Part shown: piece after piece, positions 1,898 through 20,163 of the stretch | How the letters are laid out: every line of letters begins with the position of its first letter | How positions within the stretch are numbered: the first letter of the stretch is position 1 | Source: Ruminococcus sp. | GTDB taxonomy: Bacteria > Bacillota > Clostridia > Oscillospirales > Acutalibacteraceae | Length of the DNA stretch: 64,000 nucleotides | Direction: 5' to 3' | Assembly: GCA_017458845.1 (NCBI GenBank) | Contig: JAFSZY010000014.1 | Span: 1 to 64,000 of the forward strand | Translations under genes and position numbers: made by a program | Notes under the pieces: generated by a model | The model's input: only the letters and a program-made list of their open reading frames with translations | What the model was told of the DNA's origin: nothing | Database searches by the model: none

Positions 1898-2224
1898 TTA
1901 ATAAGCCCTCCCTTGGGGGAGGGTGCCGAACGTAGTGAGGCGGGAGAGGGTCCCCTTGCTAATGGGCTTACTATCAAACGTTTGATGAAGCGAGCATATA
2001 TAAATATGGACCCTCTATCGACCAAATCGCAAGCGATTTGCCCACTTTTTCCTTGGCATGAACGGCTTCCTAAGCCGGAGACGGCAAACCCTCTGTCGCA
2101 TTTGCGACATCTCCCTTAGTAAGGGAGTCTCACTTTTGCCGGCGTTGCCGACATTTCCCCTAAAAGGGGAATTTCCCAAGGGAAAGCTTGGTGCTCCTTT
2201 CAAAAATTTCTAAAGAGGTAAAAT
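1898..2224. repeat. Gene-free mosaic of short palindromes between purH and purD
   Basis: This 327-base gap holds a chain of perfect short inverted repeats. They include CCCTCCC-TTGG-GGGAGGG (1906-1923), CAAACGTTTG (1975-1984), AAATCGC-AA-GCGATTT (2024-2039), TGTCGCA-TT-TGCGACA (2094-2109), CTCCCTTA-G-TAAGGGAG (about 2111-2127) and CCCCT-AAA-AGGGG (about 2157-2169). The sequence changes character at nearly every arm, as if several repeat elements were nested. A 68-codon frame inside it is made of the repeats and has no family resemblance, so I do not call it. The last bases (about 2212-2224) carry the purD ribosome binding site AGAGG. Confidence 0.6.
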
Positions 2225-3490
2225 ATGAAAATACTTATGGTAGGTTCGGGCGGACGTGAGCACGCTCTTATCAAGAAGCTCAAGGAAAGTCCCAAATGTA
2301 CAAAACTCTATTGCGCCCCGGGTAACGGCGGTATCTCAAAGGACGCCGAGTGCGTAAACATAGGCGCGATGGATATAGACAATATGGTCAAGTTCGCCAA
2401 GGATGAGCAGATTGACCTCGTATTCGTAGCTCCCGATGACCCGCTCGCGGCTGGTATGGTTGACGCTATGGAAAAGGCGGGTATCCGCGCTTTCGGTCCC
2501 AACGCTGACGCGGCAATCATCGAGGCTTCCAAGGTTTTCTCAAAGAACCTGATGAAGAAGTACAACATCCCCACAGCTAAGTACGAGGTTTTCAGCGACC
2601 CCCAAAAGGCGATTGAATACATCGAGTCCGAGAACACAACTCCCGTTGTCGTCAAGGCGGACGGTCTCGCTCTCGGCAAGGGCGTTATCATAGCTCAGAC
2701 AATTGACGAAGCCAAAGCCGCCGTCAAGTCCATTATGGAGGACAAGCAGTTCGGCGACTCGGGCAACAATATCGTTATTGAGGAGTTTTTGACTGGTCCC
2801 GAGGTAAGTGTTCTCGCGTTTACGGACGGCAAGGTTGTAAAGCCTATGGTCAGCTCCAAGGATCACAAGCGCGCCTATGACAACGACGAAGGCCTCAACA
2901 CGGGCGGAATGGGCACGGTTAGCCCCAATCCTTATTATACTGATGAAATCGCGGACGAGTGTTACAAAACAATTTTTGTTCCTACAATCAAGGCTATGGC
3001 GATTGAGGGCAGGCCTTTCAAGGGTTGTCTCTACTTCGGTCTTATGATTACCCCGAACGGTCCCAAGGTTATCGAGTATAACGCGCGTTTCGGCGATCCC
3101 GAGGCTCAGGTTGTACTCCCGAGATTAAAAACTGATTTGGTTGACATCTGCGAGGCTATCATTGACGAAAAGCTTAAGGACGTTGACATCGAGTGGTACG
3201 ACGGTGCAACAGCCTGTGTAGTTATGGCGAGCGGCGGCTATCCCGTAGCGTACAAAAAGGGTATCGAGATTACAGGTCTCGACGAGAACGGCTCTGTTGA
3301 CGGCGCTATTGTCTACCACGCGGGCACAAAGCTCGAGAACGGTAAAATGCTCACAAACGGCGGACGTGTACTCGGTGTAACGGCGAGAGCCGAAACACTC
3401 GACGAAGCTCTCGACAAAGCCTACGCCGCGGTCAGGAAGATTAACTTCGACGGTGCTCATTACAGAACAGATATAGGCAGAACTAAATAA
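2225..3490 (+). CDS. purD: Phosphoribosylamine-glycine ligase (GARS)
   Basis: This 421-residue ATP-grasp ligase is the usual length for PurD. It joins glycine to 5-phosphoribosylamine in step two of purine synthesis. Family signatures are visible: MKILMVGSGGREHAL at the N-terminus, CAPGNGGI, the nucleotide-binding VVKADGLALGKGV near 140-155, GGMGTVSPNPYY, and EYNARFGDPEAQVVLPRL with metal and phosphate ligands near 285-300. The start ATG has an AGAGG site 8 bases upstream. It is the last gene of the purine set and is followed at once by a strong terminator. Confidence 0.97.
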   Translation: MKILMVGSGGREHALIKKLKESPKCTKLYCAPGNGGISKDAECVNIGAMDIDNMVKFAKDEQIDLVFVAPDDPLAAGMVDAMEKAGIRAFGPNADAAIIEASKVFSKNLMKKYNIPTAKYEVFSDPQKAIEYIESENTTPVVVKADGLALGKGVIIAQTIDEAKAAVKSIMEDKQFGDSGNNIVIEEFLTGPEVSVLAFTDGKVVKPMVSSKDHKRAYDNDEGLNTGGMGTVSPNPYYTDEIADECYKTIFVPTIKAMAIEGRPFKGCLYFGLMITPNGPKVIEYNARFGDPEAQVVLPRLKTDLVDICEAIIDEKLKDVDIEWYDGATACVVMASGGYPVAYKKGIEITGLDENGSVDGAIVYHAGTKLENGKMLTNGGRVLGVTARAETLDEALDKAYAAVRKINFDGAHYRTDIGRTK

Positions 3491-3494
3491 ATAT

Positions 3495-3525
3495 AAAAAA
3501 TCCCCGAAATTTTCGGGGATTTTTT
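3495..3525 (+). terminator. Rho-independent terminator after purD
   Basis: A TCCCCGAAA stem pairs with TTTCGGGGA and is followed by TTTTT; A-rich sequence on the other side makes it bidirectional. The same stem recurs at 4630-4655 after the next gene. Confidence 0.85.
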
Positions 3526-3535
3526 ACTGAAACAC

Positions 3536-3564
3536 TTGACAATTAATTGTTCCGAAGCTAGTAT
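3536..3564 (+). promoter_or_regulatory. Candidate sigma-A promoter for the lipoprotein gene
   Basis: TTGACA (3536-3541) and TAGTAT (3559-3564) are separated by 17 bases. An overlapping TATAAT (3562-3567) would give a spacer of 20. The gene start is 43 bases downstream of the -10. Confidence 0.6.
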
Positions 3565-3606
3565 AATACCAAATAAATTTGTCTGCCTGTTCAGGGAGGT
3601 TTTGCT

Positions 3607-4623
3607 ATGAAGAAAATGATTTTAATTTCTCTTTCTATTGTTATTTGTTTTTCTTTTATTTTATCTTCCTGCTCTGAAAAATACGATAAATCTCAATACA
3701 CACAAAAGGAAATTAAATACCCGATAAACGCCGAATTTGACGCAAATAATAAAGCAACATATTATGATAACCTTGATTACTACGGATATTATGATTTTCT
3801 TGATTTTCTTGATGTTATAGAGTACAGTGATATAAAACCAAAGTATAATATCGAAAAAGATGTCGACCCGTTTTATCTTACGGAAGGATGGGATGAGGGA
3901 GAATACTGGGAAATTAATTATGAAGCTTTGGCGAGCAATTATTACAGGAGTTTTCAGTCCGCGGTGCGTCAGTCGGGAGATTATATAATCTCGGATTTTA
4001 AAGACGGCGTGTGTATTAACAAGCTGATTTTTGATAAAAACAAATACAAAAGTAAAGATATAACAATAAAGATTCCTGAAACTATTGAAGGCAAAAAGGT
4101 TTTGAAGCTTAGCGGGTATATAAAAGATTATGATGAAGATATTTATCACGATAGATTTATGCAGCATGGTTTTTTAAATGAATTTCCCAGAAATTATAAG
4201 ATACACTTGATTATTCCGTCTACGGTTACTGATATAAGCGACTGCGGGCTTTACGGCTATTATTATCATGATTATGACGATTATTATTACGTAAAAGCTT
4301 CATACATTGAGGTAAGTCCTGATAATAAAAACTTCAGCTCAATAGACGGTGCTTTATATAGTAAAGACAAAAAATGGTTGTTGCTATTTCCTGACGATTA
4401 TTATGACTCGAAAGATTTTGTTGTTCCCGGGAGTGTAGAAAACATTTTAGATGTTTTTGAGGAGCTTAAATTCAAATCCTTGACAATAGGCAAAAATGTA
4501 AAACATATTTATTCTGATTACTTTGATAATAAAAAATGTATTGTTGATATTTATAAAAATTCTTACGCCGATAAGTGGTTTAAGGGTATTGATTTTGAAG
4601 CTAAGATAAAATTTCTTGATTAA
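3607..4623 (+). CDS. Secreted lipoprotein with BspA-like (LRR_5) repeats, function unknown
   Basis: The protein has 338 residues. The N-terminus is a typical lipoprotein signal peptide: Lys-rich start, hydrophobic core, then LSSC with Cys22 as the predicted lipid-attachment residue. The middle is very rich in Asp and Tyr. The C-terminal half reads like BspA-type leucine-rich repeat units, e.g. LIIPSTVTDISDCGLY, then IEVSPDNKNFSSIDGALYS with LLLFP, then a VPGSVENI and LTIGKNVKHI rung. Such repeats usually mediate surface binding, but no ligand can be inferred. The gene is clearly more AT-rich than its neighbours and is bracketed by two near-identical terminators, each followed by a TTGACA promoter, so it looks like an inserted single-gene unit. 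The start has GGGAGG about 7 bases upstream. Confidence 0.75.
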   Translation: MKKMILISLSIVICFSFILSSCSEKYDKSQYTQKEIKYPINAEFDANNKATYYDNLDYYGYYDFLDFLDVIEYSDIKPKYNIEKDVDPFYLTEGWDEGEYWEINYEALASNYYRSFQSAVRQSGDYIISDFKDGVCINKLIFDKNKYKSKDITIKIPETIEGKKVLKLSGYIKDYDEDIYHDRFMQHGFLNEFPRNYKIHLIIPSTVTDISDCGLYGYYYHDYDDYYYVKASYIEVSPDNKNFSSIDGALYSKDKKWLLLFPDDYYDSKDFVVPGSVENILDVFEELKFKSLTIGKNVKHIYSDYFDNKKCIVDIYKNSYADKWFKGIDFEAKIKFLD

Positions 4624-5290: not shown

Positions 5291-7474
5291 TTATTTATTG
5301 AACCTTTTCAATCTCAGCGCGTTAGACACAACACAAATCGAGCTCAGGCTCATTGCGATTGTGCCGAACATCGGCTGCAGCTGCCATCCGAGCAGCGAGT
5401 AAAAAGCTCCAGCCGCGAGAGGTATGCAGATTATATTATAGATGAAAGCCCAGAACAGGTTTTCCTTAATATTTCTCAGTACCGCCTTGCTCAGCTTGAT
5501 TGTGGTGACAACGTCCGTGAGGTCGTTTTTCATCAGCACTATGTCGGCTGAGTCAATCGCGATGTCGGTTCCCGCGCCGATAGCTATTCCCACGTCCGCG
5601 CGCACTAAGGCGGGGGAGTCGTTGATTCCGTCGCCCACCATAGCGACAACGCTGTTTTCCTGATATTTCCTGACTATTTCCTCTTTTTCATTTGGCAGAA
5701 CCTGAGAGTACGCGGTCTTTATGCCCGCGGCTTTTTTGATATATTCGGCGGTCTGCTTGTTGTCGCCCGTCAGCATAACCGTTTCAATGTCAAGGGAATT
5801 TAGCTTACTTACTGCGTCTTTGCTGCTTTCCTTGATAATGTCCGCAACAGCGATAATGCCAATTACCTTTTTCTCGTCAGCAAAGAACAGGGGAGTCTTA
5901 CCGTTGTTATATAATTCTTTTATGGAATTATTATCAAAATCAATTGAGTTTTTCTTTATGAATTCAAGGTTTCCCGAATAATACTTTTTGTTTTCAATCT
6001 CAGCCGAAATCCCCGAGCCTGTATATGACTTGAAATTTTTGGCTTTTAAGAGCTCCACGCCGTTTTCTTTGGCGTATTCTACAACAGCTTTGCCCAGAGG
6101 ATGCTCTGACTCATTTTCGAGCGCGTAGGCTATTTTCAGGAAATCGTCTTTTTCAATATAGGGGAGAACGTCGGTGACGGCAGGCTCTCCTTTTGTAATT
6201 GTGCCTGTTTTATCGAGTACAACGGTCTTTACCTTGTTGGCGATTTCCACAGCCTCGGCGGACTTTATGAGTATGCCGTACTGAGCCGCTTTGCCTGTAC
6301 CTACCATAATCGCCGTGGGAGTGGCGAGCCCCAAAGCGCAGGGGCAGGAGATTACAAGCACAGCAATACCGAACGAAATCGCCCTGCCGAAGTCAGCGCC
6401 GACCAAAAGCCATATAATAGTGGTTATAATCGCGATACCGATTACCGAGGGGACGAATACCGCCGCTATTCTGTCTGCTATTCTGGCGATAGGAGCCTTT
6501 GAAGTTGTGGCGTCCTCAACGAGCTTTATAATTTTTGACAGCGTCGTGTCCGCGCCAGTGTTTACCGCTTCAATTTTAATATAGCCTGACTGCAATACAG
6601 TGCCGCCTGTCACATTATCACCCACAGCTTTGTCCGCGGGTATGCTCTCGCCCGTGATAGCACTCTCGTCAACACTGCAATTGCCCTCGATAATTTTGCC
6701 GTCAACGGGTATGCTTAAGCCGTTTTTGCAGATTACTATGTCACCCTGTTTGAGCGAGGTTGTGGGGACTTCAATCTCCTCTCCGTCTTTTTCAACAATC
6801 GCTGTTTTGGGCGTGAGCTTTATGAGTTTGCTTATCGCGGAGGAGGTTTTGCTTTTGCTCTTGCTCTCCAGGAATTTGCCTATAGTGATGAATGTCAGTA
6901 TCATTCCCGCCGACTCAAAGTAATAGTGCTCGCTCATACCGTAAACGCTGTTTATTATCAGGTTGTACACGCTGTACGCGACCGATACGCCCGCGCCCAG
7001 AGCTATAAGAGCGTCCATATTGGGGTTGAGCTTAAACAGCGATTTGAAACCATTAATAAAATATTTTTTGTTAAGTATCAGAATAGGAATAAGCAAAACA
7101 ATTTCCGCAATACCAAGCACCGTCATATTCTCCAGAACAGGAATATGCACACCGACCATATGGCTCATACTTACAAGCATCAGGGGAATCAGGAATACAA
7201 TTGAAAGTATCAGCTGTTTTTTTGTTTTGTCCGCGTTTTCGCTATACTCCTCATTTTGCGCGGAATACTCCTTTGCGTCGTAGCCCGCTTTTTTAACAGC
7301 GGCTATTATTTTTTTATTGTTTAAAACATTTTCGTCATAACAGGCGTCCATAGTGTTCGCGAGCAGGTTTACGTTGACCGATTCTACTCCGTCAAGGTTT
7401 TTTACAGCCTTTTCCACGTGAGCCTGACACGCCGAGCACATCATACCCATAACATTAAACTTTTGATTTTTCAT
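5291..7474 (-). CDS. copA: Copper-exporting P1B-type ATPase
   Basis: This is a full-length heavy-metal ATPase. Counting from the longest frame (7486), one N-terminal HMA domain carries the metal site MCSAC (C17, C20). The actuator TGE is at 278-280, the membrane CPC motif at 381-383, the phosphorylated Asp in DKTGT at 425, the SEHPLG nucleotide loop at 460-465 and GDGIND at 618-623. YN in TM7 (683-684) and MSLSS in TM8 are the CopA-type residues specific for Cu(I). I place the start at ATG 7474 because GGTGA sits 7 bases upstream of it; the ATG at 7486 lacks a good site. No copZ, csoR or copY is adjacent. It exports excess copper from the cytosol. Confidence 0.94.
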   Translation of the reverse strand: MKNQKFNVMGMMCSACQAHVEKAVKNLDGVESVNVNLLANTMDACYDENVLNNKKIIAAVKKAGYDAKEYSAQNEEYSENADKTKKQLILSIVFLIPLMLVSMSHMVGVHIPVLENMTVLGIAEIVLLIPILILNKKYFINGFKSLFKLNPNMDALIALGAGVSVAYSVYNLIINSVYGMSEHYYFESAGMILTFITIGKFLESKSKSKTSSAISKLIKLTPKTAIVEKDGEEIEVPTTSLKQGDIVICKNGLSIPVDGKIIEGNCSVDESAITGESIPADKAVGDNVTGGTVLQSGYIKIEAVNTGADTTLSKIIKLVEDATTSKAPIARIADRIAAVFVPSVIGIAIITTIIWLLVGADFGRAISFGIAVLVISCPCALGLATPTAIMVGTGKAAQYGILIKSAEAVEIANKVKTVVLDKTGTITKGEPAVTDVLPYIEKDDFLKIAYALENESEHPLGKAVVEYAKENGVELLKAKNFKSYTGSGISAEIENKKYYSGNLEFIKKNSIDFDNNSIKELYNNGKTPLFFADEKKVIGIIAVADIIKESSKDAVSKLNSLDIETVMLTGDNKQTAEYIKKAAGIKTAYSQVLPNEKEEIVRKYQENSVVAMVGDGINDSPALVRADVGIAIGAGTDIAIDSADIVLMKNDLTDVVTTIKLSKAVLRNIKENLFWAFIYNIICIPLAAGAFYSLLGWQLQPMFGTIAMSLSSICVVSNALRLKRFNK

Positions 7475-7505
7475 AATAATCACCATAGTTTTTCAATTCT
7501 AACTA

Positions 7506-7534
7506 ATTGTATCATAAGTTTAAACAGTAGTCAA
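7506..7534 (-). promoter_or_regulatory. Promoter of copA
   Basis: On the minus strand TTGACT (7529-7534) and TACAAT (7506-7511) are separated by 17 bases, about 32 bases before the copA start. I see no CopY or CsoR operator sequence. Confidence 0.65.
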
Positions 7535-7547
7535 AACAAAAGCTATG

Positions 7548-7625
7548 TCCCCGCTGTCATTCCGAGCTTGCAAAGGTTGTCCCCTGTGAGGAAAATGTCA
7601 GCCGTAGGCTGACAAAAGGGGGATG
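7548..7625. repeat. Palindromic intergenic repeat
   Basis: A perfect hairpin TGTCAGCC-GTA-GGCTGACA (7596-7614) sits between CCCC and GGGG arms (about 7580-7583 and 7618-7622). It resembles the blocks at 541-700 and 1898-2224. No gene is present. Confidence 0.45.
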
Positions 7626-7656
7626 AAAAAAAACAGAGCAGCCAAACGGCTGCTCT
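7626..7656 (-). terminator. Rho-independent terminator after spo0A
   Basis: On the minus strand AGAGCAGCC/GGCTGCTCT (7635-7656, 4-base loop) is followed by a run of eight T (7626-7633). Confidence 0.9.
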
Positions 7657-7672
7657 AACTTACCACTCATCA

Positions 7673-8437
7673 TTAACTCGCGTTTTTCAGCTGCAATCTC
7701 AGCTTGTCGGCTATCATAGCGATGAACTCACTGTTGGTGGGCTTGCCTCTGCTGTTGTGGATGGTATAGCCAAAGTAGGAGTTGAGTACATCCACGTCGC
7801 CTCTGTCCCAGGCTACCTCAATGGCGTGGCGTATAGCCCTTTCGACCCTTGATGAGGTCGTTTCGTATTTTTTGGCTACGCTTGGGTATAGCTGTTTTGT
7901 CACAGCGTTGATGATCTCGGGAGTTTCGATGGACATAATGATTGAGTCTCTCAGGTAGTTGTAACCCTTTATGTGAGCGGGAACACCGATATCGTGAAGA
8001 ATCTCGGTAACTCTCAGCTCAATGCCGTAGTTGTCATATCCAAATCCGCCCGTCTTGATTTTACCCTTATTGTGCAGTGTAACAATATCCTCACAGATTG
8101 CGTTTATATTGTAAGGCTTTAGGGCGTAATAATCCGCTCCATTCGTCATAATTTCCTTTTCGAGAGCGGGACTGTTGAATGAAGCCGTGACAATAATAAT
8201 AGGAGAGCTAACACCTTTTTGTTTGAGAGAACGCATAACGCCGAGTGAGTCGAGCCTTGTCATAAATAAATCCATAAGCACCACGTCGGGCTTGTTATTC
8301 ATAATTTTGAGCAGGAGCTCCTCGCCGTCGTTTTTACAGAATTCGGGAACTATGTTGTGGTTTTTTATAACGCTTAAATCGTCGTTTGAAAATTTGCTTA
8401 TATCTTCCGTAATCAGCAGTTTAATCGAGTTGTTCAT
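7673..8437 (-). CDS. spo0A: Sporulation master regulator Spo0A
   Basis: A receiver domain is joined to the Spo0A-specific DNA-binding domain. The phosphorylated Asp lies in VVLMDLFM (D58 of the longest frame), with acidic pocket ED at 13-14 and the receiver Lys in LKPYN. The receiver is divergent: the usual DxxMPxxDG stretch reads DLFMTRLDS. The C-terminal half is canonical: [41 protein letters not shown] and [17 protein letters not shown]. It commits the cell to sporulation. I set the start at ATG 8437 because GGAGG (8446-8450) is 8 bases from it but only 2 from the ATG at 8443. It lies downstream of spoIVB as in other clostridia, with its own promoters. Confidence 0.96.
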
Positions 8438-15618: not shown

Positions 15619-15647
15619 TTGACAGTATTCTTCATTAAGATTATACT
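15619..15647 (+). promoter_or_regulatory. Upstream promoter of the polyol-phosphate operon
   Basis: TTGACA (15619-15624) and TATACT (15642-15647) with a 17-base spacer. Confidence 0.6.
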
Positions 15648-15687
15648 TAAAATGTGAAATAATAATTAGGGTTATTCTGTCATTTTA

Positions 15688-15716
15688 TTGACTTTATATG
15701 CCTTTTTTGGTAAAAT
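15688..15716 (+). promoter_or_regulatory. Downstream promoter of the polyol-phosphate operon
   Basis: TTGACT (15688-15693) and TAAAAT (15711-15716) with a 17-base spacer. Together with the one at 15619 it forms a tandem pair. Confidence 0.55.
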
Positions 15717-15752
15717 TATATAATAATAACTTAATGGATAATGGAGTCAGTT

Positions 15753-16442
15753 ATGAATACAGCTATCATTCTAGCGGGCGGTGTCGGCAGCCGAATGGGC
15801 GTTGATAAACCCAAGCAATATCTCATTGTGAACGAAAAGCCAATTATCGTTTACTGCCTCGAAATTTTTGAAAAACACGCTGAAATTGACAATATTGTCA
15901 TAGTAGTCAGCGACGAGTGGAAGGACTATGTTGAACAGAACGTTGAGCAGTACGGAATCTCAAAGGTCTGCGGTTACGCTCCCGCGGGTAAAACCCGCCA
16001 GCACTCCATCTATAACGGGCTTAAATCCGCTCAGGAGAACGCTCCCGATACTAAAGTCTGTATCATTCACGACGCGGCGCGTCCGCTCGTTTCCGACAAG
16101 ATTATCTCCGACTGTATCGTCGGCGCTATCGAGGACGACGGCGCTATGCCCGTTATTACGGTTAAGGACACCGTGTATCAGAGCAAGGACGGCAAGTCTA
16201 TCGACAACCTTCTCAAGCGCAGCGAGCTTTTCGCGGGACAGGCTCCCGAGAGCTTTGACTTCAAAAAATATCTCGATATACATAATTCCGTCTCGGATGA
16301 TGAAATCGCCTCAACCGCGGGCAGCAGTGAGATTGCTTACCGTCACGGGATGAAAATCCGGTTGGTTGAAGGCAGCGAGAGGAACTTTAAAATCACAACA
16401 GTAGAAGATTTGGAAACTTTTGAAACTATTATTAATTCCTGA
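15753..16442 (+). CDS. IspD/TarI-family cytidylyltransferase, probably for ribitol-5-phosphate
   Basis: The roughly 229-residue nucleotidyltransferase has the CTP-binding loop ILAGGVGSRMGVDKPKQY, the HDAARPLV stretch and the late STAGSSEIAY and NFKITTVEDL motifs. IspD (methylerythritol-4-phosphate) and TarI (ribitol-5-phosphate) share these, and the sequence alone does not separate them. The next three genes favour TarI: a polyol-phosphate dehydrogenase, a pentulose-phosphate epimerase and a teichoic-acid type phosphotransferase. I infer synthesis of CDP-ribitol. The start is set at ATG 15753, since TGGAG (15742-15746) is 6 bases upstream; the ATG at 15741 overlaps that site. IspD for isoprenoids remains the alternative. 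Confidence 0.8.
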   Translation: MNTAIILAGGVGSRMGVDKPKQYLIVNEKPIIVYCLEIFEKHAEIDNIVIVVSDEWKDYVEQNVEQYGISKVCGYAPAGKTRQHSIYNGLKSAQENAPDTKVCIIHDAARPLVSDKIISDCIVGAIEDDGAMPVITVKDTVYQSKDGKSIDNLLKRSELFAGQAPESFDFKKYLDIHNSVSDDEIASTAGSSEIAYRHGMKIRLVEGSERNFKITTVEDLETFETIINS

Positions 16443-16456
16443 TAGGAGGTAGACCT

Positions 16457-17509
16457 ATGGATACAATGAAAGCCAGAGTTTTGCACGCGGTTGGTGACCT
16501 TAAGTATGAGGATTATCCGATTCCCGAGCTCAAACCCGATGAAGTTTTGATGAGGGTTAAGGCTTGCGGCATCTGCGGCTCCGATATTCCCAGAATTTTT
16601 GTAAACGGCACTTATCATTTTCCCACAATCCCGGGGCACGAGTTCGCGGGAGAGGTTGTAGCCGCCGCTTCAAAGGAGAACGAAAAATACATCGGCACAC
16701 GCGCTGCTGTTTTTCCGCTGATTCCTTGCAGGGAATGCACAAGCTGCAACAAGGGCGTTTATGAGACCTGCAAGAATTACGATTATCTCGGTTCGCGTTC
16801 CGACGGAGCCTTTGCCGAGTATGTTAGAGTTCCTGTATGGAACCTCGTTCCCATAGCTGATAATGTGTCTTTCGAGGAAGCCGCTATGGCTGAGCCCACC
16901 GCGGTGGCGCTTCACGCATTGAGACGCGCGGGAATAGAAATCGGCGATACGGTCGTAATCTACGGTCCCGGTACCATAGGTATGCTTATCGCTCAGTGGG
17001 CGAGAGCCTGGGGCGCGGGCAAGGTCCTTCTTGTAGGTACCGATATGAACAATTACGAGTTTATTGAAAGCCTCGGCTTTTATGACTATTTCAACGCTTC
17101 CCACGGAGATCCTATCGAGTGGATTATGGAACAGACCGACGGCAACGGCGCGGATATAGCCATTGAGGCTGTAGGTATTGCCGTAACCGCCAACAACTGT
17201 CTTGACAGCGTCGCGTCAGGCGGAAAGGTTATTTTCGTGGGCAATCCTCACGGTGACTTCACCTTCGCTCAGAACACTTATTGGCAGATTTTGAGAAAAC
17301 AGCTCAGAATTTTCGGCACATGGAACTCTGCCTATAACAACACTCCACAGAGCGACTGGGCGGTAGTTGTTGACGCTATGTCCTCAGGCGCCGTTAAGGT
17401 TAAACCTCTCATCACTCATAGATTCAGTCTTAAGGATATGGACAAGGGACTTGAAATTATGAAAGAGGGAAAAGAATTTTACAGTAAGGTAATGGTTGTT
17501 ATCGACTAA
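16457..17509 (+). CDS. Zinc-dependent polyol-phosphate dehydrogenase (GatD/TarJ-like)
   Basis: The 350-residue medium-chain dehydrogenase has catalytic zinc ligands C37 (ACGICGSD), H61-E62 (GHE) and a Glu near 146. The four structural Cys are in CRECTSCNKGVYETC (91, 94, 97, 105). The NAD(P) fold carries YGPGTIGML. GSDIPRIFVNGTYHFPTIPGHEF and LRKQLRIFGTWNS closely resemble galactitol-1-phosphate 5-dehydrogenase. Following a TarI-like gene, the likely reaction is reduction of ribulose-5-phosphate to ribitol-5-phosphate as in TarJ; other sugar phosphates are possible. The start has a strong AGGAGGT site. Confidence 0.85.
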   Translation: MDTMKARVLHAVGDLKYEDYPIPELKPDEVLMRVKACGICGSDIPRIFVNGTYHFPTIPGHEFAGEVVAAASKENEKYIGTRAAVFPLIPCRECTSCNKGVYETCKNYDYLGSRSDGAFAEYVRVPVWNLVPIADNVSFEEAAMAEPTAVALHALRRAGIEIGDTVVIYGPGTIGMLIAQWARAWGAGKVLLVGTDMNNYEFIESLGFYDYFNASHGDPIEWIMEQTDGNGADIAIEAVGIAVTANNCLDSVASGGKVIFVGNPHGDFTFAQNTYWQILRKQLRIFGTWNSAYNNTPQSDWAVVVDAMSSGAVKVKPLITHRFSLKDMDKGLEIMKEGKEFYSKVMVVID

Positions 17510-17518
17510 AGGTGCGTT

Positions 17519-18184
17519 ATGGCAGGAATGTTATCACCGTCAGTGATGTGCGCTGACTTGCTTAATCTTCAAAAAGAAATCGAGGAACTTGACTCTCTTG
17601 GGGTTGAGTTTCTTCATATTGACTTTATGGACAACAAGTTTGTCCCCAACATAACTTTTGACACAAATATGGTCAAGAGCTTTAAGAGACCGATGAAGAA
17701 TATCCGACGTGATATTCATCTTATGGCTTTTGAGCCTCAGCGTTTTTTTGACGCTATGGATATTTCAAAGGGCGATATGGTATCGGTTCACTTTGAGGCT
17801 TGCGAGGACGTCCACGCCGTTTTGGCTCAAATCCGTTCCCGCGGTGCTTCGCCTTGTCTCGCTATCAGCCCCGACACTCCCGTTGAGGTCGTAAAGGACT
17901 TTATGTCGGAAGTGGACGCGTTTTTGCTTATGACTGTTTACCCGGGGTTTGCGGGTCAGCCTATGGCGCCCAAGAGTATGGAGAGACTCTCTCAGCTTCG
18001 CGGCATTGTTGACGAAAGCGCCAGAGATATCAAAATCGAGGTTGACGGTCACGTCAGCTGGGATCATTGTACCGAGATGAGGGAGAGAGGCGCCGATATT
18101 TTTGTAGCGGGTTCTTCCTCTGTCTACGGAAAACAGTATCCTTTGGATAAAGCAGTTAAAATGTTTTATAGATTAGTAAAATAA
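17519..18184 (+). CDS. Ribulose-phosphate 3-epimerase family protein
   Basis: The 221-residue TIM-barrel protein has the Rpe pattern SPSVMCADLLNL, HIDFMDNKFVPN (metal ligands H33, D35), DIHLMAFEP, PGFAGQ and EVDGHVSWD. Several spots differ from housekeeping Rpe: VYPGFAGQ instead of VNPGFGGQ, and EVDGHVS instead of EVDGGI. A specialised paralogue is therefore likely. Epimerising xylulose-5-phosphate to ribulose-5-phosphate would feed the neighbouring dehydrogenase. It begins 10 bases after that gene. Confidence 0.85.
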   Translation: MAGMLSPSVMCADLLNLQKEIEELDSLGVEFLHIDFMDNKFVPNITFDTNMVKSFKRPMKNIRRDIHLMAFEPQRFFDAMDISKGDMVSVHFEACEDVHAVLAQIRSRGASPCLAISPDTPVEVVKDFMSEVDAFLLMTVYPGFAGQPMAPKSMERLSQLRGIVDESARDIKIEVDGHVSWDHCTEMRERGADIFVAGSSSVYGKQYPLDKAVKMFYRLVK

Positions 18185-18193
18185 GAAGGTAAT

Positions 18194-19987
18194 TTGGGGG
18201 AAAAGAAATTGCAGTATAAATTGCGTTTTGAAAGCGTAGTTATCGAAAAAAGAAATATGACGATTAAGGTTTCGGGTGAGTTCAACGATTCGTCCATAAC
18301 CGCCGATTCTTTAGCAACACCTAAGGTTATTTTGCATTTTAAACACAAGAACGAGGATCGCCGTATTCCTCTTGTTATCTTTTTTGATGACATTGTTACG
18401 GTTGACGGCAGGGTAATGTTCAAGTCGGAATACACCTATACTCTCGACAATATTTTCTGGAAAACCAGAAAAGCCAACAACCCCTTCAAGATGTTCGTTA
18501 ATCTCAGCTATGCTGATTTTTATGAGGAAGCCGTTGATATCGACTACACTCCCGGGCAGTTAGTTCAGGATAATTTCTTCTATACGCTTGAAGTCCGCGA
18601 CGATTGCTTCAAATTCAATACAAACGCCGAAATCATCCACAAAGACCACAAAAAAGAAAAGCTTGTTCTGCTTTTTGACAGGCTGCTCAAGATTGTCGCT
18701 ATAATTTTAGCGATTCCGCTCATCCCTATTTATATAATTATGGGACTTTTGACCTTTACGGGATACATCAAAATGCCCGCCAAGATTGAAGCAGAGGGTA
18801 AATTAGAGAGATTAGTTTCTTTTTTAATGAGCAGAATGTCGGCTGTCTGCCGTGAGAGCTTCTCAATGGTTCGCCTCAAGAGACATAATATTAAGAGCGC
18901 GTACAAGCGAGTCAAAAATCATCCGATTAAGGAGAACAGAATTACATTCTACTCAGCCAGAAGAAACGAGCTTTCGGGCAACTTTGAGTTTGTATATAAT
19001 AAGCTTAAGGATGATAAGAACCTCGACATCCGGTTCCTTTATAACACTAATACATTCAGATTTATGACGAAACAGCAGATAAAAGAGTTCGCCGAAGCCT
19101 GCGCTACAAGTAAGGTTATTGTGCTTGACGAGTATACTCCTCAGATTCACCTGATAAGTCTCAAAAAGGAGACTAAGATTATTCAGCTCTGGCACGCCTG
19201 CGGAGCTTTTAAAACTTTTGGCTTCTCACGTTTGGGTAAGCCTATGGGTTCTCCGCAGAACACCAGAATGCACCGCTCCTACGACTATGTAACGGTCAGC
19301 TCAAAGTATTGCCAAAAGTGCCATTCCGAGGGCTTTGGTATCGCTACGGATAACGTTGTTCCCACAGGCATAGCGAGGACTGACATTTTCTTTGACGAGC
19401 AGTACAAGCAGAGCTTTATCAACGAATTCTACAAAAAATATCCCAACTTTAAGGACAAGAAGATTATCCTCTTCGCGCCCACCTTCAGGGGCGATGTCAA
19501 GGAAACCGCTTATTATCCTATGGATTTGTTTGATATCAACGACGTTTGCGCAGAGCTCGGTGACGAGTACGCGATAATCATCAAGCACCATCCGTTTATT
19601 CAGGAAAAGCAGGAAATCCCCGAGAAGTACTCAGACAGAGTAATCGACCTTTCCGACAGTACCGAAATCAATGATCTTCTGTTTGTTTCTGATGTCATAA
19701 TTACGGACTACTCCTCGCTTGTTTTCGAGGCTTCCATTGTCAATGTACCTATGCTGTTTTACGCGTATGACCTTGAGGGATATATAAAAGAAAGAGACTT
19801 CTACTTCGACTTCAAAACCAATATCCCGGGCAAGATTTGTACATCGTTCGTAACCTTGATGGAAGCTATCAAGAATGAGGATTATGAAGCGGAGAAAATT
19901 GACGCGTTCAGGGAGATGTTCTTCGATAAGCTGGACGGCAACTCTTCACAGAGAATAGCCGATTTAATTTACAAATGTTTGGAATAA
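18194..19987 (+). CDS. CDP-glycerol/CDP-ribitol poly(polyol phosphate) transferase (TagF/TarL-like)
   Basis: The 597-residue protein ends in a Glyphos_transf domain (about 250-597). Signatures include IIQLWHACGAFKTFG, VTVSSKYC, VPTGIARTDIFF, KKIILFAPTFRG, IIKHHPF and IITDYSSLVFEA. These enzymes transfer glycerol- or ribitol-phosphate from the CDP form onto a growing teichoic-acid chain at the inner membrane face. The first 150 residues form a hydrophilic, probably beta-rich domain, and a hydrophobic stretch at 164-190 should anchor or dock it to the membrane. The start is TTG at 18194 or TTG at 18209; the latter has better spacing from the GGGGG run. With the three genes before it, it completes a polyol-phosphate polymer pathway. 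Confidence 0.88.
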   Translation: MGEKKLQYKLRFESVVIEKRNMTIKVSGEFNDSSITADSLATPKVILHFKHKNEDRRIPLVIFFDDIVTVDGRVMFKSEYTYTLDNIFWKTRKANNPFKMFVNLSYADFYEEAVDIDYTPGQLVQDNFFYTLEVRDDCFKFNTNAEIIHKDHKKEKLVLLFDRLLKIVAIILAIPLIPIYIIMGLLTFTGYIKMPAKIEAEGKLERLVSFLMSRMSAVCRESFSMVRLKRHNIKSAYKRVKNHPIKENRITFYSARRNELSGNFEFVYNKLKDDKNLDIRFLYNTNTFRFMTKQQIKEFAEACATSKVIVLDEYTPQIHLISLKKETKIIQLWHACGAFKTFGFSRLGKPMGSPQNTRMHRSYDYVTVSSKYCQKCHSEGFGIATDNVVPTGIARTDIFFDEQYKQSFINEFYKKYPNFKDKKIILFAPTFRGDVKETAYYPMDLFDINDVCAELGDEYAIIIKHHPFIQEKQEIPEKYSDRVIDLSDSTEINDLLFVSDVIITDYSSLVFEASIVNVPMLFYAYDLEGYIKERDFYFDFKTNIPGKICTSFVTLMEAIKNEDYEAEKIDAFREMFFDKLDGNSSQRIADLIYKCLE

Positions 19988-19992
19988 AAGGC

Positions 19993-20021
19993 TTGACAAT
20001 CGTAAATTAATGTTATATAAT
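19993..20021 (+). promoter_or_regulatory. Promoter of infC-rpmI-rplT
   Basis: A full consensus promoter: TTGACA (19993-19998), 17 bases, TATAAT (20016-20021), with start expected near 20028. Confidence 0.85.
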
Positions 20022-20027
20022 CATTTA

Positions 20028-20163
20028 TGCAAAAATAAAGTAAGGCAGTAATGCTTTCACCTGTGGGGTGTCGTCTGCACGGGTCAATACTTTTAAACAC
20101 GGTTTTATTATGTATTGTTATGCGGACGGATTATCTGTCCGCATTTGTTTTTATTTAATCTAT
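20028..20163 (+). ncRNA. infC leader (L20-leader-type attenuator)
   Basis: About 135 bases of untranslated leader lie between the promoter and the infC ribosome site. It ends in a terminator-like hairpin ATGCGGAC/GTCCGCAT (20120-20144, 9-base loop) followed by TTTGTTTTT. In Firmicutes the same operon is controlled by L20 binding to such a leader, with premature termination. Position and structure fit; I have not matched the covariance model. Confidence 0.65.

Follow-up and report, generated by a model that had tools for sequence, protein, structure and literature searches.

The closest described systems are the TarI-TarJ-TarL sets of Staphylococcus, Listeria, and Lactiplantibacillus, in which a ketose-phosphate reductase, a CTP:polyol-phosphate cytidylyltransferase, and a polymerase act together. 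Two Escherichia coli enzymes, the D-allulose-6-phosphate 3-epimerase AlsE (3ct7, 3ctl) and the galactitol-1-phosphate 5-dehydrogenase GatD (4a2c), are also relevant here. GatD-like MDRs have been described as D-arabitol-phosphate dehydrogenases using xylulose-5-P (PMC6685057), and CDP-arabinitol is a precursor in pneumococci (PMC10118250). We analyzed a 64,000-nucleotide stretch of a Ruminococcus sp. contig (JAFSZY010000014.1, assembly GCA_017458845.1), hereafter the window. The window contains an operon that is predicted to make and polymerize a CDP-activated sugar alcohol, probably other than ribitol.

Operon organization and conservation

Four intact, co-directional genes on the forward strand (approximately 15619-19987) form one operon with intergenic gaps of 9-14 bases. 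They encode a cytidylyltransferase of the IspD/TarI superfamily (15741-16442), a GatD-like zinc MDR (16457-17509), an epimerase of AlsE type from the ribulose-phosphate 3-epimerase family (17519-18184), and a TarL/TagF-type CDP-polyol phosphotransferase with a TTG start (18194-19987). All four proteins match their families far above chance in profile searches, and the four activities proposed in an initial annotation are supported. At the sequence level, the operon with its cytidylyltransferase, MDR, epimerase, and polymerase is confirmed as real. The two promoters placed before it were also recovered as promoter-like sites. P1 (15619..15647, + strand) reads TTGACA-17-TATACT and matches 11 of 12 consensus positions. 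P2 (15688..15716, + strand) reads TTGACT-17-TAAAAT, has a TG ahead of its second hexamer, and matches 10 of 12. Of the 16 close-clade relatives scanned, 15 carry the P1 hexamers with the same spacing ahead of the operon within the stretch examined, and P2 was seen in most relatives.

The gene order is the same in 37 other Ruminococcus-type genomes, and among 120 sampled genomes of the genus, 55 encode the epimerase. The four genes are under strong purifying selection, with dN/dS of 0.015-0.094 wherever computable. The inclusion of an epimerase had been called unusual for tar clusters. This holds against textbook tar genes, but the epimerase-containing module recurs in other genera (L121, L124, L125, and L230, and L218 with an SDR reductase). 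Intact genes, conserved linkage, retained catalytic residues, separate housekeeping IspD and Rpe enzymes, and a joint divergence of three of the enzymes from the ribitol type can all be read directly from sequence.

Family assignment of the four enzymes

The first gene is predicted to encode a CTP:polyol-phosphate cytidylyltransferase. Its likely start is the ATG at 15753 (229 aa), which is favored by relatives and a GGAG site. The curated model NF001183, which names ribitol-5-phosphate cytidylyltransferase, scores it at 183 bits (cut-off 166), and the IspD model TIGR00453 gives 173.9 bits, under its cut-off of 181.3. A separate, better-scoring IspD (213 bits) is encoded elsewhere in the genome (G000:C19). 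The possibility that the window enzyme is the only IspD of the genome, for which the initial annotation had suggested a search, is ruled out by this gene. The tree places the window enzyme in a separate 100/100 clade with 11 rows, distinct from IspD and from the TarI clade (96/98), which comprises TarI of Listeria, S. epidermidis, L. plantarum, and Leuconostoc together with L121. The catalytic D106, R109, R157, and K213 are retained. At E. coli IspD positions 165-167 the window enzyme has A-P-E, compared with T-P-Q in IspD and TarI, and it has A at position 189. A-P-[E/D] is found in cytidylyltransferases linked to window-type MDRs, and T-P-Q in TarJ-linked ones and IspD. The L121 enzyme groups with TarI yet independently carries A-P-D.

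The MDR is predicted to reduce a hexulose phosphate (or another ketose phosphate) to a polyol phosphate. It matches the GatD model (E=2.6e-67), has GatD (4a2c) as its best solved relative, and carries motifs for the zinc ligands at residues 37, 60, and 91. It shares only 18-23% identity with four genuine TarJ proteins, and TarJ and the window type form separate 100/100 clades. Plain TarIJ orthology is ruled out by these identities and by the clades of both enzymes. A 99/97 clade unites the window MDR with MDRs from further CDP-polyol clusters. The catabolic sister members of this clade (L119, L120, L122, L126, L127, and Enterococcus raffinosus L220) are each encoded near an AlsE-type epimerase; the epimerase of L220 shares 55% identity with E. 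coli AlsE.

The epimerase matches Ribul_P_3_epim (PF00834, E=3e-55), retains the catalytic H33, D35, H67, and D176, and was modeled confidently as a (beta/alpha)8 fold (pLDDT 92.5). RPE and AlsE match the window epimerase equally well in a fold search, which therefore cannot tell the two apart. The loop after strand 8 is one residue longer (GSSSVY, compared with GTSGLF in AlsE and GSA-VF in Rpe), a difference that sets AlsE apart from the solved RPEs when these are aligned pairwise with it. PGFAG is present, and DGH replaces DGG in the phosphate-binding loop. T196, S197, and G198, the residues reportedly involved in loop deletions of AlsE, coincide with the additional loop residues in this alignment. 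When loop length was scored by a pattern rule, 64 of 142 aligned family members combined a short loop with DGG and 57 a long loop with another residue; each mixed kind occurred once, and the rest were unscored by the pattern.

Ordinary Rpe proteins form a 100/99 clade, and the window epimerase falls outside it. The tree rules out a recent duplicate of the cell's own Rpe, and an ordinary Rpe encoded elsewhere (G000:C17) rules out the window epimerase as the only Rpe of the genome. The NCBIfam AlsE equivalog model scores the window protein at 161 bits against a cut-off of 271. Some long-loop members are fused to ROK hexose kinases or encoded next to them, together with an RpiB-type isomerase, an arrangement like that of allose operons. 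In Listeria L225 and L224 and Clostridia L180, a short-loop and a long-loop epimerase occur in or near one polyol operon, as if the two differ in substrate. By these features the window epimerase is of the AlsE type, and it is predicted to prefer hexulose-6-phosphates. This agrees with the earlier suggestion that its altered loops point to a special substrate.

The polymerase matches Glyphos_transf (E=2.8e-83) and the solved TarL 8va1 (E=1.3e-79). Its best family is TarL (E=1.2e-97), although the score of 328 bits lies under the curated cut-off of 1000 and belonging to this family does not define the polyol. The motifs WHACGAFK (333), KHHPF (464), and DYSSLVFE (505) and one hydrophobic segment around residues 167-187 were identified, and the protein is the only strong member of its family in the genome. 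TagA (PF03808) had no match in the 99.9% complete genome, and with it the linkage unit typical of wall teichoic acids appears to be lacking. Three LytR_cpsA_psr attachment proteins are encoded; such proteins also serve other polymers.

Predicted pathway and alternative readings

The dehydrogenase, cytidylyltransferase, and epimerase depart together from the ribitol type, and the assignment of the cassette to a non-ribitol type is fairly firm. A route from fructose-6-P through allulose-6-P, hexitol-6-P, and CDP-hexitol to poly(hexitol phosphate) is modestly favored by these features. The AlsE-type epimerase would convert D-fructose-6-P to D-allulose-6-P, and the GatD-like dehydrogenase would reduce carbon 2 to give allitol-6-P or altritol-6-P. 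The IspD-superfamily enzyme would then couple hexitol-6-P to CTP, and the TarL-like enzyme would repeatedly move hexitol-phosphate units onto a lipid-linked or membrane acceptor, yielding a teichoic-acid-like poly(hexitol phosphate). In this scheme, we infer which substrates are used, how the steps follow one another, that the polyol is a hexitol, what the acceptor is, and that the polymer lies at the cell surface. The ribitol-5-phosphate label of NF001183 and the TarL family of the polymerase count against it, as do the ability of AlsE to take ribulose-5-P too and the equal fold match to RPE and AlsE. A search for hexitol teichoic acids returned no relevant report and no allitol or altritol phosphate polymer within the literature library covered. 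The wider proposal, that rumen Ruminococcus and several other Clostridia with the same enzyme set use a new CDP-hexitol pathway to a poly(hexitol phosphate) surface polymer, is plausible but tentative.

Another pentitol could be used instead, with ribulose-5-P epimerized to D-xylulose-5-P and reduced by the MDR to D-arabinitol-1-P or xylitol-5-P for poly(arabinitol phosphate) or poly(xylitol phosphate). The published activity of GatD-like MDRs on xylulose-5-P and the pneumococcal CDP-arabinitol are consistent with this reading. So are two pentose-like contexts that count against a hexitol: in L126 this type of MDR and epimerase occur together next to a ribulokinase, and in L198 a long-loop epimerase is accompanied by transketolase and RpiB. 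However, the MDRs of arabitol-type operons (L225, L223, and L198; those of Listeria and L. paracasei are so called by resemblance) form another 100/100 clade, L225 has a short-loop Rpe besides its long-loop epimerase, and the genome already encodes an Rpe that could supply xylulose-5-P. We consider a pentitol of this kind rather unlikely.

The initial annotation had proposed ribitol, running from xylulose-5-P through ribulose-5-P, ribitol-5-P, and CDP-ribitol to poly(ribitol phosphate), so that the divergence of the enzymes would reflect phylogenetic distance only. The CDP-polyol-to-polymer logic of that scheme is supported by the sequence, and the NF001183 and TarL matches and gene roles equal to those of tarIJ(L) in Listeria, S. 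epidermidis, and L. plantarum speak for ribitol itself. Its choice as the polyol is nevertheless not supported, given a dehydrogenase outside TarJ, a cytidylyltransferase outside TarI and IspD with a changed pocket, and an AlsE-type epimerase. With Rpe already present in the cell, another enzyme for ribulose-5-P and xylulose-5-P would be superfluous. The sampled Clostridia L207, L210, L211, and L213 carry TarI-like T-P-Q enzymes with dehydrogenases scoring weakly to the window type; ribitol-type pairs therefore appear to exist in Clostridia and look different. A literature search for an epimerase together with TarJ found no relevant report. We consider the ribitol scheme improbable. CTP might also be coupled to a ketose phosphate at the outset, with the resulting CDP-ketose then epimerized and reduced, or the TarL-like protein might add single polyol-phosphate decorations to another glycan. 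The TagF family has single-transfer members (TarB and TarF), TagA and the usual linkage unit were not detected in the genome, and the DGG-to-DGH change lies where the epimerase binds phosphate. But the TarF and TarB models score the polymerase at 141 and 118 bits, far under TarL, and a longer ketose phosphate explains the AlsE-type loop more simply, which makes these variants very improbable.

Annotation pipelines would assign these genes to ribitol-phosphate enzymes, or to IspD and Rpe. Should the hexitol pathway be correct, a group of rumen bacteria would be using an unusual six-carbon sugar alcohol, to our knowledge not known in cell walls, for a teichoic-acid-like polymer. An A-P-[E/D] cytidylyltransferase with a GatD-like MDR and a long-loop epimerase would then be a signature predicting the polymer in other gut bacteria, and rare hexitols and allulose-6-P would gain a biosynthetic role. 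The polyol of such polymers becomes testable with four purified enzymes.

Comparison with known systems

The operon shares with TarI-TarJ-TarL the combination of reductase, cytidylyltransferase, and TarL-like polymerase. It differs in its GatD-like reductase, a cytidylyltransferase of another clade with A-P-E, the additional AlsE-type epimerase, and a genome without TagA. The epimerase resembles E. coli AlsE in the longer post-strand-8 loop, PGFAG, DG followed by a non-glycine residue, and the SLMC/SVMC motif. The two are only 32% identical, and the window epimerase lies in a biosynthetic operon whereas AlsE acts in allose breakdown. GatD, also a zinc MDR, acts on a hexitol phosphate, but is 31% identical to the window MDR, which is presumed to run in the reducing direction.

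Among related clusters, E. raffinosus L220 (a mannose-type PTS operon with a 6-phospho-3-hexuloisomerase-like protein) encodes an MDR 46% identical to that of the window in the same operon as a true AlsE homolog, but looks catabolic and has no cytidylyltransferase or polymerase. L121, with a TarI-TagF fusion, an AlsE-type epimerase, an MDR, and a teichoic-type ABC exporter, shows the same activities, although its cytidylyltransferase belongs to the TarI clade. We know of no characterization of L121, L230, or L218. L230 and Parabacteroides L218 also combine the same activities with TagF/TarL-type transferases, L218 differing in having an SDR as its reductase.

Operon organization, conservation and genome context

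The operon consists of four intact forward-strand genes spaced 9–14 bases apart, flanked by a divergent CPBP protease gene on one side and infC on the other. Curated models assign the products to the IspD/TarI-superfamily cytidylyltransferases (15741–16442), the zinc-dependent MDR dehydrogenases with GatD closest (16457–17509), the ribulose-phosphate-3-epimerase family (17519–18184) and the TarL-like polymerases (18194–19987). For the cytidylyltransferase, ATG 15753 is the likelier start codon; it is preceded by a GGAG site and matches the start of several relatives. Two sigma-70-like promoter sites were identified upstream by sequence match, the first being shared by 15 of the 16 close relatives that were scanned. 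Together, gene calls, models and promoter sites bear out the initial annotation of a four-gene operon behind two promoters. Downstream (19988–20144), a promoter-like site with a perfect 12/12 match begins 5 bases 3' of the polymerase stop, and the infC leader (20120–20144) contains a strong terminator-like hairpin. No Rfam family was found at threshold across the whole window.

A further 37 Ruminococcus-type MAGs, the majority of rumen or gut origin, keep the same gene order, with the CPBP gene and infC as flanks wherever contigs extend far enough. Pairwise dN/dS of the operon genes ranges from 0.015 to 0.094 in the computable pairs. Within the genus, 55 of 120 sampled genomes have the operon-type epimerase, mostly alongside an ordinary Rpe; at family level the count is only 2 of 150 genomes. 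One of these two, locus L230 from another genus, has all four gene types; there, three tandem TarL-like stretches follow the operon-type cytidylyltransferase, MDR and epimerase (7327 to about 11400). The kept gene order, low dN/dS and uneven occurrence indicate an old, functional and patchily distributed operon. Full-length loci of a deeper clade (L031–L034 and L036–L043) carry an extra A-P-Q cytidylyltransferase and an SDR at about 2200–4100, upstream of the four genes. This pair is of the type carried by L. plantarum and Leuconostoc plasmids in their capsule loci, and possibly serves a second CDP-polyol.

The 2.2-Mb genome (99.9% complete) also encodes a stronger IspD on contig C19 (213 bits, versus 146 for the operon enzyme), the separate ispD whose existence the initial annotation had left to be checked, and an ordinary Rpe on C17 (259 versus 187 bits). 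A housekeeping role for the operon enzymes is thereby ruled out, and they are regarded as extra copies with a special role. Apart from the operon polymerase, the genome encodes no strong Glyphos_transf protein. Elsewhere in the genome, contig C57 carries a phosphonate cassette (L130, 4372–10009), with consecutive genes for a fusion of nucleotidyltransferase and PEP mutase, an iron-containing alcohol dehydrogenase, a phosphonopyruvate-decarboxylase-like TPP enzyme and a distant TagF-type transferase, which suggests surface glycans with phosphonate decoration.

Cytidylyltransferase and dehydrogenase

The cytidylyltransferase retains the catalytic residues of E. coli IspD (D106, R109, R157 and K213). 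It has A-P-E at positions 165–167 and A at 189, where IspD and TarI have T-P-Q and T or S; we take these positions to line the polyol pocket. In the tree, it shares a 100/100 clade with proteins of L123–L125, L201, L204, L205, L208 and Parabacteroides L218. This separate clade and the changed pocket residues rule out TarI or IspD identity ("CYTIDYLYLTRANSFERASE"). A-P-[E/D] was found in every sampled cytidylyltransferase linked to a window-type MDR, and T-P-Q in every TarJ-linked one. The L121 enzyme groups with TarI yet has A-P-D, and its linked genes encode a window-type MDR and an AlsE-type epimerase; the pocket change therefore seems to have multiple origins. In L218 (6264–11215), a polysaccharide locus on a plasmid of Parabacteroides distasonis (Bacteroidota), the cytidylyltransferase, an SDR oxidoreductase and a long-loop epimerase are consecutive, in a row that also includes two CDP-glycerol-glycerophosphotransferase-family genes.

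The MDR shares 31% identity with E. coli GatD and 18–23% with the genuine TarJ proteins encoded at loci in Listeria, L. plantarum, S. epidermidis and Leuconostoc, which form a separate 100/100 clade; TarJ identity is ruled out on both grounds. It belongs to a 99/97 clade with MDRs of the CDP-polyol clusters L121, L123, L124 and L125. Members of the sister clade are catabolic (L119, L120, L122, L126, L127 and E. raffinosus L220), with an AlsE-type epimerase close by in all six loci; that in L220 shares 55% identity with E. coli AlsE. MDRs of arabitol-type operons fall in a different 100/100 clade. In L124, a 471-aa protein without a Pfam match (6526–7941), possibly an unrecognised transferase, is encoded immediately upstream of the epimerase-cytidylyltransferase-MDR genes.

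The epimerase

The operon epimerase is assigned by its sequence to the AlsE type. The catalytic H33, D35, H67 and D176 are retained. In alignments to solved structures, AlsE is one residue longer after strand 8 than the RPEs displayed. Like AlsE, the operon epimerase has the longer loop, GSSSVY; it also has DGH in place of DGG, and PGFAG. Work by Chan et al. from 2008 reportedly found that the extra residue lengthens the AlsE site for hexulose-6-phosphates and that deletion of a loop residue in AlsE switches preference to ribulose-5-P. Among 142 aligned family members scored by loop pattern, 64 combine the short loop with DGG, 57 combine the long loop with a different residue (many from the window's own family, and so not 57 independent events) and 2 are mixed, the remaining rows being unscored. 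Ordinary Rpe forms a 100/99 clade, and the operon epimerase lies outside it.

A ROK hexose kinase and an AlsE-type epimerase are naturally fused, beside an RpiB-type isomerase, in L186 (5377–6939) and L188 (3762–5402), and a ROK kinase lies near the long-loop epimerase in L191; these arrangements resemble allose operons. In Listeria L225 (4272–10365) and L224 (8555–16024) and in Clostridia L180, two epimerases, the one short-loop and the other long-loop, lie within or close to a single polyol operon, which fits different substrates. The long-loop enzymes of the two Listeria loci are annotated merely as ribulose-phosphate 3-epimerase.

Predicted pathway and candidate polyols

In the proposed pathway, the AlsE-type epimerase would convert fructose-6-P to allulose-6-P, which would be reduced to allitol- or altritol-6-P, coupled with CTP and polymerised. 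A hexitol is slightly favoured as the polyol, and the product may be poly(allitol or altritol phosphate). This route would account for the presence of the epimerase, since pentulose phosphates are already served by Rpe. The main rival, a pentitol other than ribitol, is considerably less probable; it draws on the L126 MDR/epimerase pair adjoining a ribulokinase, the L198 long-loop epimerase near transketolase and RpiB, and the ability of GatD-like MDRs to reduce xylulose-5-P (PMC6685057). The identified and linked genes depart in a coordinated manner from ribitol-type enzymes, which makes the ribitol-phosphate polymer of the initial annotation improbable, more so than the other pentitols.

For the hexitol phosphate polymer, we infer all substrates, the order of steps, the acceptor and the surface location. 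LCP proteins are present in the genome but TagA is not detectable in it, so the predicted polymer does not count as a standard wall teichoic acid. The cassette probably differs from the canonical ribitol system. It is a real operon for a known kind of pathway, and its enzyme set marks a distinct, recurring variant.
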